Shown: positions 22,674-62,936 of the stretch, piece by piece
Layout: every line of letters begins with the position of its first letter
Numbering within the stretch: position 1 is the first letter of the stretch
Origin: Rhizophagus irregularis
Lineage: Eukaryota > Glomeromycota > Glomeromycetes > Glomerales > Glomeraceae
DNA length: 64,000 bases
Assembly: GCF_026210795.1 (NCBI RefSeq)
Contig: NC_089432.1
Span: 4,712,001-4,776,000 of the forward strand
Direction: 5' to 3'
The notes under the pieces: generated by a model
Told to the model about the DNA's origin: nothing
The model's input: only the letters and a program-made list of their open reading frames with translations
The model's database searches: none
Made by a program: the position numbers and the translations under genes

Positions 22674-25600
22674 ATGGACCAACGTATTAAAGGTACATCA
22701 AACAAGCTGAAATATTTTTTTATTTTATTATAAACAATCCATGTTTAATATTTTACATAATTCAACTAACTACATTCTTAATTTAAATAACTAGATTGTA
22801 AGTAATATATATATAATGTACAGTAAATAATTTTATATTATCTTTATATTTAACTAATTAATAATTGATAATACTACAGGGTGTAAGTTATATGATATCA
22901 TTTGTATTATTTATAATTTAAGCTAACTAATTTCTTTAAAAAAATTATTAAATAATATAGGGTGTAAGTTATTTATTTAATTCTACTATTACTTATTGTT
23001 ATTATATTTACATATAATTTAAACTATTTAATTTCTTTATTTAAAAAATTATTAAATAATATAGGGGGTAAGTTATTTATTTAATTCTATTATTATTGTT
23101 ATAATATTTACATATAATTTAAACTATTTAATTTCTTTATTTAAAAATTATTAAATAATATAGGGTGTAAGTTATTTATTTAATTCTATTATTACTTATT
23201 GTTATAATATTTACATATAATTTTAACTATCTAATTTCTTTATTTAAAAAATTATTAAATAATATAGGGGGTAAGTTATTTATTTAATTCTATTATTACT
23301 TGTTGTTATAATATTTACATATAATTTAAACTATCTAATTTCTTTATTTAAAAAATTATTTCGTAGATGGTAAGTTATTTATTTAATTCTATTATTACTT
23401 GTTGTTATAATATTTACATATAATATAAACTATCTAATTTCTTTATTTAAAAAATTATTAAATAATATAGAAAGTAAGTTATTTATTTAATTCTATTATA
23501 ACTTATTGTTATAATATTTGCATATAATTTTAACTATCTAATTTCTTTATTTATTTAATAGATTGTAAGTTATAAGTTATTTATTTAATTCTATTATTAC
23601 TTATTGTTATGATATTTACATATAATTTAAACTATCTAATTTCTTTATTAATTTAACAGATTGTAAGTTATAAGTTATTTATTTAATTCTATTATTACTT
23701 ATTGTTATAATGCTTACATATAATTTAAACTATTTAATTTCTTTATTTAAAAAATTATTAAATAATATAGGTAGTAAGTTATTTATTTAATTCTATTATT
23801 ACTTATTGTTATAATATTTACATATAATTTAAACTATCTAATTTCTTTATTTATTTAATAGATTGTAAGTTATAAGTTATTTATTTAATTCTATTATTAC
23901 TTATTGTTACATATAATTTAAACTATTTAATTTCTTTATTTAAAAAATTATTAAATAATATAGGAGTAAGTTATTTATTTAATTCTATTATTACTTATTA
24001 TTATAATATTTACATATAATTTAAACTATCTAATTTCTTTATTTAAAAAATTATTTCATAGATGGTAAGTTATTTATTTAATTCTATTATTACTTATTGT
24101 TATAATATTTACATATAATTTTAACTATCTAATTTCTTTATTTAAAAATTATTTCGTAGATGGTAAGTTATTTATTTAATTCTATTATTACTTATTGTTA
24201 TGATATTTACATATAATTTAAACTATCTAATTTCTTTATTAATTTAACAGATTGTAAGTTATAAGTTATTTATTTAATTCTATTATTACTTATTGTTATA
24301 ATGCTTACATATAATTTAAACTATTTAATTTCTTTATTTAAAAAATTATTAAATAATATAGGTAAGTTATTTATTTAATTCTATTATTACTTATTGTTAT
24401 AATATTTACATATAATTTAAACTATCTAATTTCTTTATTTATTTAATAGATTGTAAGTTATAAGTTATTTATTTAATTCTATTATTACTATTGTTACATA
24501 TAATTTAAACTATTTAATTTCTTTATTTAAAAAATTATTAAATAATATAGGAGTAAGTTATTTATTTAATTCTATTACATTAATATTATAATATTTACAT
24601 ATAATTTAAACTATCTAATTTCTTTATTTAAAAATTATTTTACAGATGGTAAGTTATTTATTTAATTTATTATTACTATTGTTATAATATTTACATATAA
24701 TTTTAACTATCTAATTTCTTTATTTAAAAATTATTTTGTAGATGGTAAGTTATTTATTTAATTCTATTATGTTTATTGTTATGATATTTACATATAATTT
24801 AAACTATCTAATTTCTTTATTAATTTAACAGATTGTAAGTTATAAGTTATTTATTTAATTCTATTATTACTTATTGTTATAATGCTTACATATAATTTAA
24901 ACTATTTAATTTCTTTATTTAAAAAATTATTAAATAATATAGGTAGTAAGTTATTTATTTAATTCTATTATTACTTATTGTTATAATATTTACATATAAT
25001 TTAAACTATCTAATTTCTTTATTTATTTAATAGATTGTAAGTTATAAGTTATTTATTTAATTCTATTATTACTTATTGTTACATATAATTTAAACTATTT
25101 AATTTCTTTATTTAAAAAATTATTAAATAATATAGGGAGTAAGTTATTTATTTAATTCTATTATTACTTATTATTATAATATTTACATATAATTTAAACT
25201 ATCTAATTTCTTTATTTAAAAAATTATTTCATAGATGGTAAGTTATTTATTTAATTCTATTATTACTTATTGTTATAATATTTACATATAATTTTAACTA
25301 TCTAATTTCTTTATTTAAAAATTATTTCGTAGATGGTAAGTTATTTATTTAATTCTATTATTACTTATTGTTATAATATTTACATATAATTTTAACTATC
25401 TAATTTCTTTATTTAAAAATTATTTCGTAGATGGTAAGTTATTTATTTAATTCTATTATTACTTTTGTTATAATATTTACATATAATTTTAACTATCTAA
25501 TTTCTTTATTTAAAAAATTATTTAATAGATTGTAAGTTATAAGTTATTTATTTAATTTTATTATTACTTATTGTTATAATATTTACATATAACTTTAACT

Positions 25601-27579
25601 TTCTAATTTCTTTATTTAAAAAATTATTAAATAATATAGGGGGTAAGTTATTTATTTATTACTTTTTGTTATAATATTTACATATAATTTAAACTATCTA
25701 ATTTCTTTATTTAAAAAATTATTTTGTAATTTATTTTAGTTGGTAAGTCATAAGTTATTTATTTAATTCTATTATTACTTATTATTATATAATTTAAACT
25801 ATCTAATTTCTTTATTTAAAAAATTATTAAATAATATATAGGGGGTAAGTTATTTATTTAATTCTATTATTACTTATTGTTATAATATTTACATATAATT
25901 TAAACTATCTAATTTCTTTATTTAAAAAATCATTTCGTAGATGGTAAGTTATTTATTTAATTCTATTATTACTTATTGTTATAATATTTACATATAATTT
26001 AAACTATCTAATTTCTTTATTTAAAAAATTATTATGATCTAGCTTGTAAGTATCTCTATTGTTATATATTATATAATATTTATTTGTTAATTGAATTCTT
26101 TTATTTAAAAATTATCTGTTACTTTAGTTGGTAAGTTGTAAATTATAGGTTATTATATGTATTTATCCAAAAACTAAGACTTACATTACATTACATTAAA
26201 TTCCTATTTAAATTTTAGAGTAAGTAATAATTTATTTTAGTGTAAATTATAATACAATCTATAATATAATTTTAATTATTTAAATTTATAGATTTGGAAA
26301 AAGTGGAAATACAATTATAGATGATTTTATTCTTGAAAACAAATTAAGATGGATTCCTTATAACAAATTTAAAAATGTTGAATATCTTAATGAAGGAGGA
26401 TTTGGTACTATATACAAAGCTATTTGGTTAAAGAATAATGAAGATGAAAAAGAAGTAATTCTTAAATGTCACAAGAATTTAAATGAAAATTTAAGTGAAT
26501 TTTTAAAAGAAGTATGATAGATTGATAGTATATTATTTTTTATTTTCATAATTTATATTAATAAATTTTTATTAATTTTGTAGTGGGACTATTATAAGAA
26601 TTGTTTAAATTCATCATATGAAATTGTAAATTTTTATGGATTTACAGAAGATCCAAATATTTTAAAATATATAGTAGTAATGCTTTATGCAAATAATGGT
26701 AATTTAAGAGAAAATTTAACAAGAATAGTCGAAAATAATTGGAATGAAAAATTATGTATGTTGTACAGAATTATTTCTGGACTTAATAAGATACATGGAG
26801 AAAATCTTATTCATTGTGATTTTCATGATGGTAATATTTTAAATCATAATTTTTATGAAACTTATATTAGTGATTTAGGATTATGTCAACCTGTAAAATC
26901 ATTTTTGAAAAAGCATGATATTTATGGTGTTATACCATTTATGGCTCCTGAAGTTTTAAGAGGCAAATCTTATACTCTAGCTAGTGATATATACAGTCTT
27001 TCTATGATTATGTGGGAATTTACATCTGGAATACCACCATTTAATAATAGAGCACATGACATTCAACTTAGTTTAAGTATTTGTAGAGGTGAACGTCCTG
27101 AAATTCTTGAAAATACTCCACAATGTTATGTAGATTTAATGAAAAAATGTTGGAATGAAGATCCATTAAAAAGACCATCTGCTAAAAAAGTATTAAAAAT
27201 TATTGAGAATTGGCTTATCCATTCTGATTATGATGAAGTTAATGAAGAATTAAAAAGCAACATTATGGAATTTATAAGTGCACCAATTGGGCAGCATAAC
27301 AATCTTGTTACTAAATCTCATCCTAAAGCATGTTATACAAGTCGTTTACTTGATTTTACTAGTAAAGAATTGAATGAAATTCTCAAAATTGAAGATTCAC
27401 AAGCTAGTATAAAAGCAAATGAAATGCTAGTAAGTGAAGATTTGAATGATTGTATAATTAAGGATTTGGGGTCATTAGGTATGTATTATGATATATAAAA
27501 GAATTAATCTTGCAAATTATTTATGTAAAATTAATTTTATTTAATATTTAATTTAGATATTAAAACAGATGAAAATTAA
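22674..27579 (+). CDS. TKL-like protein kinase, non-RD, with intron-array 5' region
   Basis: The catalytic part is certain. Exons are 26292-26511, 26584-27478 and 27557-27579, the last ending at TAA. They encode LRWIPYNKF, the glycine loop EGGFGTIYKAIW, the beta-3 lysine in VILKCHKN, HCDFHDGNIL, SDLGLC and MAPEV. The catalytic-loop Arg before Asp is Cys, so this is a non-RD kinase; other key residues are present. A read-through of the last intron would instead end at 27498. The 5' part is inferred: an ATG at 22674 opens a 19-nt exon (MDQRIK) ending in AAAG before GTACAT at 22693. Between this and 26292 lies only the tandem intron-like array (separate entry). Unlike the kinase at 6865-9289 there is no Cys-rich N-terminal block; the exon starting at 26292 begins FGKSGNTIIDDF, matching the segment just after that block. 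Whether the 5' exon joins in frame depends on which array junctions are used. Confidence 0.75.
22795..26290 (+). repeat. tandem array of ~36 intron-like units
   Basis: About 35 head-to-tail units of ~70-120 bp, most near 100 bp. A typical unit reads GTAAGTTATTTATTTAATTC, then ATTATTACTTATTGTTATAA, a segment with TTTACATATAATTTAAAC, TATCTAATTTCTTTATTT, and an end in TATAG, CGTAG or ACAG. That is a canonical 5' splice site, a CTAAT branch-point match, a pyrimidine tract and a 3' splice site. Between AG and the next GTAAG there are 3 nt in 32 of the 36 junctions I counted (ATG, ATT, GGG, GGT, GTA, AAA, GGA, TTG, CTT). There are 2 nt (GA) in two, at about 23963 and 24551. There is none at 24361, and 1 nt at about 26220. 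The array lies wholly between the proposed first exon and the first catalytic exon of the kinase gene. It is either an intron amplified together with a codon-sized exon, or a minisatellite derived from an intron. Confidence 0.9.
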
Positions 27580-27676: not shown

Positions 27677-27750
27677 AGATTTATTTAAACACTAAGACTA
27701 GAGTAGTAAAATATTTTACAAGTTTCTTAGTTTGTAATTTAAATAAATCT
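27677..27750. repeat. ~75-bp palindromic interspersed repeat, copy B
   Basis: Reads AGATTTATTTAAACACTAAG ... TAATTTAAATAAATCT, the near-perfect palindrome also seen at 6726-6802, here about 100 bp after the stop codon of the second kinase gene. It is in the opposite orientation to copies C and D. The position behind both kinase genes suggests it is part of, or attracted to, their 3' ends. Confidence 0.75.
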
Positions 27751-28433
27751 TTTTTTTTTAACTTTTCCAATTATGAGATATAAATTATCAAAAATAATAA
27801 TATAAAACCATTTCCAATGATAATGTATAGGCCAACAGCCTAACACTAGCCATTTGATCTGTTTGATCACATGTTCATACATAGCTCTGCATAATTCTGG
27901 CCAAACCTGTCTGGAAAATGTCCTTCTATAAATTTTGTTTTACAAACAGTTCTATGAAAATGGCAGTGATTTGTGTATATATTGATAAACAAATTACAAT
28001 GATAAATTATCACGTATGTGACAATAAAGAGCCAACTATACAGTATTAAGAGTTTTGCAGGTAAACTTTTATTTTCACTAATTTAATGTAACTTATATAT
28101 ATTATAATATCCGAATGGAAGTTATTTGTTATTTGAATATCAAGAAATTGATGTTCAATAAATTAAAATTATTATTCCCCTTAGCCGATCATGACGGCCA
28201 TTGAGTAGTAATATCTCTCGAGTTTAACGTTATAAATTATAAAATACTTCCTGATTTAACAATAACATATAAAGGGTAGAGTGGGATCCTAAAATATACG
28301 AAGAATGAACAAAGATTGTATGTTTCTTGTTTGTTAAATAACGGCCTTAAATAGCTTTGATTCACTCATTAAGAATATTATTTTATTTTTCATTGTTTTA
28401 TCTATACGAAGGGAGGGAATTTCTTTATTACGA
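27751..28433. other. spacer
   Basis: No coding region is recognised here. The sequence is A+T-rich with no obvious repeats apart from scattered short palindromes. Confidence 0.4.
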
Positions 28434-30265: not shown

Positions 30266-31350
30266 GGACGGATTATTAAAATACGCATATTTTTAGTAGT
30301 TTATCTGATTATATATATACTTTATAGTTTATATATACATAAGAATAATTAAAATAAGTATAATCAACTATTTAACCTATTTAACACGTAATACTTATGC
30401 TGATCTAACAATTTGTAAAAACTAAAAAACTATTTTAATATATTTTTTACGCGATAAATGTGCAAATCACATAATGATCAGAGGCTAAAAAATTAATTTG
30501 CGTATTTTTTCTGATTTTCTGAAATAAGGCAATTTTGCGTACTAAACTTATATAAAAACCCCATGACGAATAAATTTGAAAGTCACCTTACCTCTTTATA
30601 TATCAACCGTTTTATATAATTTCTTTTGTTTATTTTCATTTTTACAACCCATTTTATAATCTTTGTTAAATTTTTTTTTTTTTTTTACGTTAAAGATTTT
30701 TAAAGATTTTTTTTTAAACATACATTTAGTTATTCATAATATAATATGGTCAACTATAATAAGCTTACTATATTTATATTTTTTAGTCACAATGCTGGAA
30801 AAATTCATACCGTCATGAGTGTTACATTATTTTAAAATGTCAAATCTTAGGATCCAGCATGAACTTTTCAGGGCCGGAATCATGATAATGTTGGCTAGTA
30901 TTTAAAAAGGCAATGAAACTCTAGCCGGCACTATCTAAAAAGGAAAGATCTACATGAATTTTTTGGCTGCTAAACTCAAATCTATGTATTTTTCAGGGTT
31001 CTAGACCTATAAATTATTAATCAAGATTCCTGTCACTATTAATAATTGATTAATTGGCTATATTTAATCAAATATTATTACAAATTCATTAAGTATTTCT
31101 CCTGTAATTAAAATTTATGGGTTTTTATTTATTAGTTTACCTTTATTTAATCAAGTAATCTGCATTTATAAAATGTGAATCAAACATCTGTTATTAAATT
31201 TTAATTACTTTCTCTTGAAATGAATATAAAAACTTTATATCATGTCATTCATTTTAATTATTTTATAGTACATTTGTAATTGTTTTATTTATATAATTAT
31301 ATTATTATTTTGATAATTATATCTAATAATTGGAAAATTTATAAAAAAAA
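30266..31350. other. AT-rich spacer
   Basis: No gene, RNA or defined repeat can be supported in this stretch. Confidence 0.4.
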
Positions 31351-31422
31351 AGATTTATTTAGATTACAAACTAAGAAACTTGCAAAAATATTTACTACTT
31401 TAGTCTTAGTGTTTAAATAATT
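31351..31422. repeat. ~75-bp palindromic interspersed repeat, copy C
   Basis: Reads AGATTTATTTAGATTACAAA, then CTAAGAAACTTGC, a TTTACTACTTTAGTC core and TTAGTGTTTAAATAATTCT. It is the same palindrome as at 6726, 27677 and 31487, and it lies only 65 bp from copy D in the same orientation. Confidence 0.7.
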
Positions 31423-31486
31423 CTAAGTAAAATAAAAAGGAGAATATAAATATTTAATACTTGGATAAACTATAAAAAAAAAAAGG

Positions 31487-31670
31487 AATTATTTAAATTA
31501 CAAACTAAGAATCTTGTAAAATTATTTTTACTACTCTAGCCTTAGTGTTTAAATAAATCTAAGCAACAATTTCTGTTAGATGCATCATGACATCAAATAT
31601 CATTTAAAAAAAACTATAAATTCTTATAAAAATACAAATAATTAGTTATTTTTTATGGTATCAACATATC
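31487..31670 (-). pseudogene. footprint of a kinase-gene 3' end
   Basis: On the minus strand this segment resembles the stretch following the last exon of the kinase gene at 22674-27579, in the same order. First comes AATAACTAATTATTTGT (compare AATTAACTAATCATTGTTTG), then AATTTATAGTTTTTTTTAA, then GATATTTGAT, then AGAAATTGTT, then the ~75-bp palindrome (copy D, 31487-31560). The coding part upstream is not recognisable. It marks a third, otherwise lost, kinase copy or a duplicated 3' UTR. Confidence 0.6.
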
Positions 31671-32889: not shown

Positions 32890-33492
32890 TGTAATGCCGT
32901 AGTATATCTAGTAAATTTATTAATTGTGAGGCGCAGTATTATATTTAGTCTTAGTGTATAAAATTTTAACTTATTTTTATTTTTATTTTAATTGGACCGA
33001 GAAGTCGTTAAACTAATAATCACATGGATTAAGGTAATTGGTCCGTGATGACCTTAAACTATTAGTCACGAGATTTAAGGATAAATGAAGATCCGAAAGA
33101 TACTAAATTGAATGAAATCAAGTGATCTGAGATGTCAAGTGAGTAATTTGTTGATCACTACGTTAATATTATAAATCATAATTCAGGAGTTTATGATGAT
33201 CAAATGGATACAAAATTAAGATAATGGAAATACTTTAAAACAATGGAAATACTTTAATAATTTAAATCCATGAATTGAAATTATGAATTTAGTTACACAA
33301 GAACAAACATAAAAGGGCGTGAAGATCACCTTTTGAGAGAAAAGGAGACGAATTTTGTTATGAATTATTTATTTTATCATTTAATGTTATTAAACCAAGC
33401 ATATTATTGTATTTATTTATATTATTAATAAAGAGTCATTTTGTTAATACCTGAGGTGGCAAACATAATTCTCTATGGGCTCAGGTGTTACA
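32890..33492 (+). repeat. 5' LTR
   Basis: Starts TGTAATGCCGTAG and ends GGGCTCAGGTGTTACA (TG...CA). An AATAAA polyadenylation-type signal lies near 33430. It matches the 3' LTR base for base as far as I could compare by eye. Confidence 0.95.
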
Positions 33493-43180: not shown

Positions 43181-43783
43181 TGTAATGCCGTAGTATATCT
43201 AGTAAATTTATTAATTGTGAGGCGCAGTATTATATTTAGTCTTAGTGTATAAAATTTTAACTTATTTTTATTTTTATTTTAATTGGACCGAGAAGTCGTT
43301 AAACTAATAATCACATGGATTAAGGTAATTGGTCCGTGATGACCTTAAACTATTAGTCACGAGATTTAAGGATAAATGAAGATCCGAAAGATACTAAATT
43401 GAATGAAATCAAGTGATCTGAGATGTCAAGTGAGTAATTTGTTGATCACTACGTTAATATTATAAATCATAATTCAGGAGTTTATGATGATCAAATGGAT
43501 ACAAAATTAAGATAATGGAAATACTTTAAAACAATGGAAATACTTTAATAATTTAAATCCATGAATTGAAATTATGAATTTAGTTACACAAGAACAAACA
43601 TAAAAGGGCGTGAAGATCACCTTTTGAGAGAAAAGGAGACGAATTTTGTTATGAATTATTTATTTTATCATTTAATGTTATTAAACCAAGCATATTATTG
43701 TATTTATTTATATTATTAATAAAGAGTCATTTTGTTAATACCTGAGGTGGCAAACATAATTCTCTATGGGCTCAGGTGTTACA
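43181..43783 (+). repeat. 3' LTR
   Basis: 603 bp, from TGTAATGCCG to GTGTTACA. It looks the same as the 5' LTR throughout, and is followed directly by the duplicated CTGG. Confidence 0.95.
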
Positions 43784-61300: not shown

Positions 61301-62936
61301 TCGTATATGGAGTTTCTACCTGTTTTTTATTGATACGCCTTAAAGATGAAATGTCACCTTCTTCATTACTACCGTAATCAACGTTATCGTCATTATCACT
61401 TTCTTGTTTTCTCACAATATTACGAGACTTTGAAATTGGGTTTTCAGCTTCTTCATCTGATAAATCACCATGTAAAGACTGACTTTGACTATCTTGATTT
61501 TTTGGACGATGAGTGATTTCATCGCTTTTTCCTCTATGGGGAGGATCAAACCTTTCTTTCTTAATATTTTTTCCCGTTGGAGATGGAGAGTCATCTTTTT
61601 TGTTCGGGAATTCGCCGATATCATCATCATAATCAACATCATAGTCGTAGTTTACGGTCGTATCTGATTTCTTTGATTTCTTACTTCTTGTATCATGGTC
61701 AGACTTTGGACGATTATATCCCGCTGAAGATAAAAAGTTGTCTTTCTTGTCCGGGAATTCGCTGATATCATCATCATAGTTCTTTGATTTCTTTTTACTT
61801 TTTGTATCATGGTCAGATTTTGAACCGCTTTCAAATTCGCTCGCTGATCCCTTTGTATTAAATAATTTAGATGCATGCCTATTATTATCATAATCTAAAG
61901 TATGTTGGATATGTCGAGATTTAGGAGAAGAGTCAGATTTTGAACCGCTTTCAAATTCGCTCGCTGATCCCTTTGTATTAAATAATTTAGATGCATGCCT
62001 ATTATTATCATAATCTAAAGTATGTTGGATATGTCGAGATTTAGGAGAAGACGTCTGAACGGTCACAGTTTGATTGATTGAATCATCATCTTCAAAAAGT
62101 TCGAGTAACTCTTTTCGATTTTCAACATTGTCCGTCTCTTGATCAGAATTTTCTTGACCAGCTAAGACTTTTTGATCAGCTGCTGGTGGTACATTGAAAT
62201 GACTAGAACTTTCTCGTTTAAGAGTTTCAACATTCTCCGCTTTTTTAACATTCGCACTAGGGTTATGATCTTCATCATCGTCTTTATCAGAAACACCGAC
62301 TGAAACATAATCTCCAGTATTTGTAGAATTATTTTTTATATCATCGGACTCAATGATGATTTTATCGTTATCAATGGAAATATCAGTTTCTTCTTTATTG
62401 TGTTCTTTATCATCCGAACCCCCTGTATTAGAAGTATGAGTTTGCTTATTATAATCTAAAGTATCTTCTCGTTGTTGTTCAGTATATTGAGATTTTGGAA
62501 GAGAAGTTTGAATGGTCTCACTAGATACATCATCATCATCATTTATATCTTTTCGGTCTTCAATAATTTCCGTTTTTTTGTCTGATTCTTCTTGGTCAAT
62601 TAAAACTTTTTGATATAAGTTCTCATCAATACGACTTGTACTAGTATGTTCATAATCATCATCTGATGATGGGAACACTTCTTGTTTACCCGTCTCAATA
62701 TTTTCGATTTCTTTTTCGACTTGGTTATAAATTAAATTGGAGGTAATATTTTGTTCCTCGTTACTGGAAATGCCGACTGATAAATTATCATGAACATCAT
62801 CAATTGACTCATCGGACTTATCGATTATTTTATCGTTACCAACAACATTTTCTGTTGTATCAGAACTCGAAGCTTGCTCTTCCTCATTATTTGATGTGGA
62901 ATCATTCTCATTTTCAATATTTGTATCTTGTCCCAT
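46336..62936 (-). CDS. RNF213/mysterin-like giant AAA+ E3 ligase, 14 exons
   Basis: About 5190 aa, close to human RNF213. RNF213 proteins are dynein-like AAA+ ATPases that act as E3 ubiquitin ligases in the cytosol and on lipid droplets or intracellular pathogens. Exons: 62936-59790, 59719-58902, 58811-56994, 56917-54970, 54888-53724, 53652-53496, 53403-52875, 52788-52734, 52659-52555, 52479-51852, 51781-51357, 51269-48392, 48305-46515 and 46446-46336. Phases agree at every junction except the ninth exon, where one base is needed. Domains: an acidic, disordered N-terminus; CBM20 at ~745-850 (FHVHCPEDID, VVLGNIKELGHW); a helical arm; AAA with GEAGCGKTS (~2573) and WLFFDEINTC; AAA with GAPGSSKS (~2887) and VVLLDE; ETSPFNPLKVLHSLLE and VIGISNWRLD as in the family; MDENKLALADPPLLNRFEKQ; and an RZ-type zinc finger (~4420, CKCGYKYFIANCGG..CPECG). 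No RING was found. The C-terminus is a basic KQAK-type tail. Confidence 0.92.
61812..62051 (-). repeat. exact 120-bp tandem duplication inside the RNF213-like gene
   Basis: 61812-61931 and 61932-62051 are identical 120-bp units, each 40 codons, within the first exon. The duplication keeps the frame and adds a second copy of a disordered segment (SPKSRHIQHTLDYDNNRHAS and following). Identity of the two copies suggests a very recent event, or an assembly duplication. Confidence 0.9.

Follow-up and report, generated by a model that had tools for sequence, protein, structure and literature searches.

Tandem arrays of candidate three-nucleotide microexons in a large protein kinase gene family of Rhizophagus irregularis

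Architecture of the kinase locus

The window analysed here is a stretch of 64,000 nucleotides from the genome of Rhizophagus irregularis (NCBI RefSeq assembly GCF_026210795.1, contig NC_089432.1, positions 4,712,001 to 4,776,000 of the forward strand), and the subject of this study is a protein kinase gene within it. A start-codon exon and the kinase exons of this gene are separated by a tandem array of intron-like units, most of which stand exactly 3 nt apart. Judging from the sequence of this gene and its paralogues, we consider it quite likely that they form a large kinase family in which an N-terminal peptide is encoded by consecutive in-frame 3-nt microexons and a closing 1-nt exon. All coordinates refer to the window and all features of the gene lie on the plus strand.

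Exon 1 (22674..22692) reads ATG GAC CAA CGT ATT AAA G, that is, MDQRIK and then one base that opens a split codon, and is directly followed by the 5' splice site GTACAT at 22693 (AAAG|GTACAT). Intron 1 (22693..22794) has the 3' end ACTAG, and the first microexon, ATT, occupies 22795..22797; ATT GGT is the usual start of the array in genes whose exon 1 encodes MDQRIK. The microexon array proper (22795..26130) consists of 32 units of 3 nt, two of 2 nt and one of 0 nt, with introns of about 80-111 nt. Both 2-nt units read GA and would break the frame unless skipped; the one at 24551..24552 was probably copied together with the one at 23964..23965 by a segmental duplication of the array. In the zero-length unit (24361..24362) AG abuts GTAAGT, which is the form of a recursive splice site. 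Toward the end of the array lie the microexons CTT (26043..26045), after which the next intron differs in sequence, and TTG (26128..26130); both are kept in most paralogues, the latter being TCG, TCA or TTA in some. A single-nucleotide exon A follows at 26219, and its 5' splice site, at 26220, is GTAAGT. Together with the final base of TTG and the opening base of the kinase exon, this A makes GAA (Glu). The first kinase exon (26292..26511) encodes ...E-FGKSGNTIIDDFILENKLRWIPYNKF...EFLKE, and the second (26584..27498) extends for 304 codons up to the stop. In public relatives a splice near 27482 leads instead to a short final exon, placed by eye at about 27557-27579. The kinase assignment is supported by Pfam PF07714, for which the second kinase exon of the window scored 107.8 bits and the gene model of locus L014 143.7 bits (cut-off 23.1).

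Tandem Repeats Finder reported the array at 22912-26034 with a period of 98, 31.4 copies and 84% matches. There are 36 GTAAG sites in 22798-26220, and the nearest upstream AG is 3 nt off in 32 of them; our recount thus gave the same figure as the initial annotation of this DNA. At the remaining four sites the distance is 2, 2, 0 and 1 nt, the last being the A at 26219. Across the window the pattern AGNNNGTAAG (AG-N3-GTAAG) has 33 matches (32 inside the array), as compared with a mean of 3.17 and a maximum of 9 in 100 dinucleotide-preserving shuffles. The variation of the three exon bases between units, also described in the initial annotation, was confirmed, as was the position of the array between a start-codon exon (MDQRIK, ATG at 22674) and a catalytic exon, the kinase frame being open from 26292. 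Units that are copies of one another fit the amplification that it had favoured, of an intron with one codon-sized exon.

A family of array-bearing kinase genes

The 146.7 Mb genome of R. irregularis (32 contigs) was scanned for further loci. A 1-kb piece of the array used as a DNA query gave 217 genome matches, and the listed ones outside the window fall into at least 39 stretches, of which 20 were examined, chosen by their DNA similarity to the array. Twelve more loci were chosen by kinase similarity. Five of them had no listed array match and seven were diverged, with first kinase exons 55-73% identical to the query. Together with the window, these make 33 loci, and whole arrays were obtained in 26. 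Microexon arrays were found in all 20 loci picked by array similarity and, ahead of the kinase exon, in all 12 picked by kinase similarity. A kinase exon lies downstream of the array in 19 of the 20 array-similar loci. The remaining one, L027, is cut short; its shortened array has no kinase exon after it and adjoins the array of L026 on contig C7. The final 1-nt exon A is present in 30 of the 33 loci, window included, the exceptions being L012 (T), L048 (G, with a weak 5' site) and the truncated L027. A 19-nt pattern around this exon had 81 exact genome matches (reversed control, 0), and 78 of them lie no more than 700 bp from one of the kinase exon matches listed. For the TTG exon, a surrounding 17-nt pattern had 73 (control, 1). 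By this measure the genome is estimated to hold about 80 genes of the microexon-kinase type, a lower estimate in that it counts exact matches.

The arrays comprise 22-59 consecutive detected microexons. Internal exon lengths were assigned by a last-AG rule at 734 junctions in the window and the 20 array-similar loci. Of these, 722 are 3 nt long; four measure 2 nt, three 0, three 4 and one 6 nt, and one is unclear. Most of the seeming 1-nt exons inside the arrays are 3-nt exons whose first bases are AG (TAG|AGA|GTAAG, for instance), and one odd unit in each of L011 and L013 also allows a reading as a 3-nt exon with the weak site GTAGTA. In the diverged loci L048, L050 and L052, 6-nt exons occur among the 3-nt ones, which suggests that exon length there has to be a multiple of three and is more than copied spacing. 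Exons of these three loci, such as AAC and ACCGCC, are unlike the exon sequences of the close family. Insertions of unrelated DNA were seen within array introns of L019, L024, L025, L026 and L028, and the ends of the one in L026 seem inverted by eye.

Reading frame through the array

Exon 1 was located in 23 of the 26 loci with whole arrays and has two forms, MDQRIK (11 loci) and an acidic EEFE...KESK (12 loci). In loci of the acidic class, for example L009 and L015, EEFEGSGT-like acidic repeats precede the array. Some public models of this class begin with MGQ, a start that we take to resemble an N-myristoylation signal. Exon 1 stops one base into a codon, within an open frame, and in the MDQRIK class (11 loci including the window) this frame, frame A, is open for 16-46 codons back. 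The kinase exon starts A|TTT GGA and requires two bases before it. Since exon 1 leaves one base and the kinase exon wants two, an array of 3n + 1 bases, such as 3-nt exons and a final single base, fits between them. Exon 1 and the kinase exon thus set frame A independently of each other, as read from the sequence of both ends. In frame A all introns would be in phase 1, so that each microexon gives two bases to the codon already begun and one to the next. Among the three options of the initial annotation, microexons with an N-terminus variable in length are the best supported. The exons are not whole codons, however, and an N-terminus assembled codon by codon, as had been suggested, did not hold up, for the frame shared by exon 1 and the kinase exon splits codons into 1 nt and 2 nt at every junction.

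Frame models were built for 19 of the 26 whole-array loci (L013, L027 and L041-L045 were left out). The frame from array to kinase is open in 15 of the 19, and in 13 of these 15 it is made of 3-nt exons and the final base only, through as many as 59 exons. L012 and L023 contain odd-sized units and keep the frame by chance. The frame is not open in the window, L010 and L011, which carry odd-sized units, or in L022, which has one stop. When odd-sized units are omitted, the window, L010, L011 and L023 are all open. Either such units are skipped or the copies carrying them have recently been damaged. L020, L024, L025 and L028 are intact and have many distinct exons. In frame A the array would encode a peptide with abundant D, R, W, Y, N, F and G.

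Stop codons at exon junctions

The initial annotation had rightly cautioned that the spacing alone is no proof of selection. The paralogues make selection testable beyond spacing because they offer stop avoidance, AG scarcity, hypervariable exons and 6-nt exons. In frame A a junction codon takes its first base from the end of one exon and its other two from the start of the next. Over the 26 loci there was one stop in 868 junction codons, compared with a mean of 19.1 when exon order was permuted within runs, and none of 2000 such trials was as low as one stop. The five loci added after the first test had none in 177 against 3.8 expected (p 0.007). The third phase contains 143 stops. The exon strings used here omit units with a lost 5' splice site, and a few neighbour pairs thus bridge a broken unit.

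The dependence on adjacency was followed in the first 21 loci. Forward neighbours (i to i+1) gave 1 stop in 690 (0.14%), exons one further apart (i to i+2) 8 in 659 (1.2%), and those from i+3 to i+12 2.0-2.7%. When the neighbours were reversed, stops rose to 23 in 690 (3.3%). The avoidance of stops is specific to adjacent exons in forward order. Stratified according to the two opening bases of the preceding exon, the counts were one stop observed as compared with 19.0 (chi2 26). Because units are related by copying, distinct pair types were also compared, and the difference was retained (1/30 vs 55/193, p 0.001; first 21 loci). Nine more exons with AG, AA or GA as their first bases occur in the seven diverged loci, in no case after a T. 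This pattern would be expected if the exons were joined in order and translated, and we know of no other cause.

Could the microexons instead be spliced and translated as whole codons? In this alternative (frame B) the last exon would be AGTAA, the join to the kinase would read L-S-K-F-G-K, and Gly, Leu, Ile, Met and Arg would abound in the peptide. Strings resembling the exons read as whole codons do occur in seven of 85 public relatives (P0003, P0005, P0009, P0022, P0031, P0033 and P0040), where they end, for instance, in ...LSKFGKSGN with AGTAA as the last exon, and phase 0 of the exons contains only 2 stops in 911. Yet frame B gives no reason why stops should be avoided across adjacent junctions. 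In the MDQRIK class its frame in exon 1 runs into a stop six codons back, and the exon offers no ATG in it. The splice site after AGTAA decays to GTGTTA in L042 and to GCATTT in L051, whereas after the single A most loci have GTAAGT, L042 has GTGAGT and L051 GTAAGC, and L048 has GTTAGT after its G (sites compared by eye); L048 would acquire a stop under frame B. The variation of the end exons (TTG/TCG, TTA/TCA and CTT/CAT) falls on the wobble base of frame A. Other public models (P0006, P0016 and P0017) end in LEFGKSGN or LEFGKSEN as frame A does, but apparently by reading through the last intron. P0025, which matches the window kinase over the 68 residues compared, is annotated as partial and starts exactly at FGKSGN. 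On account of the adjacency test, the frame of exon 1 and the splice site of the last exon, we rank frame B second and regard it as unlikely.

Splice signals and exon variability

To see how far the splice signals are maintained, 725 introns were enumerated via an internal anchor independent of those signals. AG-N3-GT/GC is kept in 710 of them, 685 with AG-N3-G[TC]RAG and 25 with AG-N3-GT and a weaker site; of the others, eight have another spacing and seven have none by the rule. Nine GCAAGT 5' sites occur in the window and the 20 array-similar loci, seen as TTG|GCAAGT in L010 and once in L019; in L010 these GC-AG introns after TTG exons have been copied along the array. The comparisons of branch sites, column entropy and unit pairs used 669 units, a subset of all units chosen for intact core motifs, and a CTAAY branch-site match is present in 622 of them. 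In these 622 units, AG occurs between the branch-site match and the 3' splice site twice against 57.5 expected from composition, a scarcity that is partly general because AG is also low in the intron body (138 vs 298 expected) and GA is low in the same tail (34 vs 57.5 expected). The repeat units thus begin with GT or GC, end in AG and carry a branch-site motif in the manner of spliceosomal introns, and the length and phase of the pieces between them preserve the frame as those of microexons do.

A second explanation is that the whole array is spliced out, as one long intron or stepwise by recursive splicing, and leaves no bases in the mRNA. The zero-length AG|GTAAGT unit of the window has the form that recursive splicing uses, and some public models (P0026 and P0046) skip the array. 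Under the last-AG rule, however, only three of the 734 internal junctions are zero-length. A direct join of 22692 to 26292, which the initial annotation had named as an outcome that would speak against microexons, would itself leave the kinase out of frame, and the 1-nt exon would still be needed. Whole removal also leaves the stop avoidance between neighbours and the hypervariable exons without a cause, and we hold it to be very improbable.

The introns are near-uniform. Their columns have a median entropy of 0.16 bits and a mean of 0.23, with values of up to 1.26 bits in certain columns close to the branch site and 3' end, where unit types differ. The three exon positions have entropies of 1.84, 1.12 and 1.96 bits. 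Position 2 is the least variable, which would also fit the whole codons of frame B; in frame A it is positions 1 and 3 that change the amino acid. Among 2783 ungapped pairs of units whose introns are less than 1% different (0.64% per site), the exon positions differ in 57, 19 and 54% of pairs, and where introns are at least 6% different they differ in 40, 21 and 41%. Exon differences thus amount to 30-90 times the intron rate and show no rise with intron divergence, which indicates that exon identity is uncoupled from intron descent. The simplest reading of these sequences would be that homogenisation bypasses the exons, or else that they are under strong diversifying selection.

These data also bear on a third explanation, in which the array is an untranslated minisatellite derived from one intron and the genes are silent or translated from a downstream start. 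The units are recent copies (84% matches), some loci contain odd units, L027 is without a kinase, and many public models start beside the kinase exon. Copying alone would nevertheless leave unexplained the 30-90-fold difference between exons and introns, the directional avoidance of stops, the 6-nt exons of diverged loci and the frame that stays open through up to 59 exons. We judge such a minisatellite to be a very unlikely account of the array.

Other repeats in the window

Three other repeats were noted in the window. A 136-bp repeat at 31319-31563 has a consensus that by eye resembles the kinase 3' flank near 27680-27760 in reverse complement. Repeats of 46-bp period with an identical consensus lie about 10 kb apart at 32989-33080 and 43280-43371, and two tandem 120-bp copies with 100% matches lie at 61812-62051.

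Discussion

The reading that we favour, a peptide encoded by in-frame 3-nt microexons ahead of the kinase, has to be weighed against several observations that tell the other way. The microexon family is known here from genome sequence alone, and the units of an array are copies of one another, so that their counts are not independent. No exon 1 was located in L021, L026 and L045 among the 26 loci, and in L018 its frame A is open for 12 codons only, as compared with 17 for frame B. To these are added the four modelled loci that are not open, the whole-codon strings of the seven public models, the few stops in phase 0, the low variability of position 2 and the part of the AG scarcity that is general. 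The 5' splice site is conserved no better than the rest of the uniform intron. Most of the other public relatives begin at or near the kinase exon. Joined retrocopies were sought with two patterns. The first gave 5 matches (control, 10), of which four were inspected, and the second 38 (control, 8), of which eight were inspected; none of the inspected matches was followed by kinase sequence, and no intronless copy spanning the array region was seen among them or among the loci.

How would such an array be expressed? In the proposed mechanism each unit of about 100 bp acts as an intron, and the 3-nt pieces are spliced in successively, the series being closed by the 1-nt exon. Splicing would proceed by intron definition, the introns being removed one after another; this sequential order is the most likely one because sites 3 nt apart could hardly be bound at once. 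Every step would place a new 5' splice site beside the bases just added. The array may gain or lose units through recombination between near-identical introns, and since all introns share one phase, such recombination would preserve the frame. Because codons straddle the junctions, a new neighbouring exon would mean a new amino acid. The introns stay uniform while the exon bases diversify. We infer that the product is a diversified, hypervariable peptide fused to a protein kinase.

Arrangements that resemble this one in part are known. The micro-exon genes of schistosomes have many short exons in a row, in multiples of three, which are thought to create protein variation. Their exons are longer and are not known to be tandem copies of an intron with a codon, and the likeness to the R. 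irregularis kinases is one of architecture only, the host, the proteins and the sequences being unrelated. In recursive splicing, a splice event makes a new 5' splice site at the junction, which is used next. The arrays would differ from it in that the bases between the sites are probably kept; a single unit in the window has AG abutting GT.

As far as the available parts of the two papers describe them, tiny exons are also found in Arabidopsis APC11, which has a 1-nt exon supported by RNA and for which one-after-another splicing was proposed (PMC4674806), and in Fusarium CYP621A, whose 1-nt exon ranks in a paper of 2026 as the second to be known, with no earlier one in a fungal gene (PMC12940212). 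As in the R. irregularis genes, these exons lie between ordinary introns and the frame depends on their inclusion. From what these sources state, each of those genes has one tiny exon, demonstrated by RNA, whereas here 22-59 stand in a row in many paralogues, are hypervariable and are read from the genome. The repeats of the het-d and het-e NLR genes of Podospora, according to the accessible part of their description, are kept uniform through concerted evolution and yet contain hypervariable sites (PMC12222747). There the repeat is a WD40 protein domain, whereas in R. irregularis it is an intron that is uniform, and no more than 3 nt of each unit are potentially coding. The sequences are unrelated, and a common role is a guess. 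In the titles and abstract beginnings of the open PMC literature, the field of a search that subscription papers and preprints outside PMC lay beyond, we recognised no account of tandem 3-nt exons or of microexons in R. irregularis. The R. irregularis assembly paper describes both short-read and long-read RNA data for DAOM197198 and used the long reads in its annotation, and the word microexon is absent from the portion of its text available (PMC10234402).

A role of the peptide as a sensor or in recognition is a guess that draws on the fungal NLR repeats with their hypervariable sites. It is a possible though tentative extension of our findings that dozens of kinase genes carry a hypervariable recognition peptide, with about one residue per intron. 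The introns would then serve as recombination cassettes whose exchanges keep the frame, and the split codons would turn new neighbours into new amino acids.

Exons of 1-3 bases have so far been reported as single curiosities. If dozens of them are faithfully spliced in one gene, models of minimum exon size and of splice-site pairing would need rethinking, and R. irregularis would be a natural test bed for sequential intron definition. Exons that are more variable than the introns flanking them reverse the usual pattern and point to diversifying selection acting through splicing. For the family itself, a large group of kinases would have been studied without its variable part, since most public models start at or near the kinase exon or use another frame. 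On the tentative reading of a recognition peptide, R. irregularis would possess a repertoire-making system of 3-nt exons, perhaps for recognising partners or nonself. If RNA confirms the microexons, these genes would represent a new kind of gene design.

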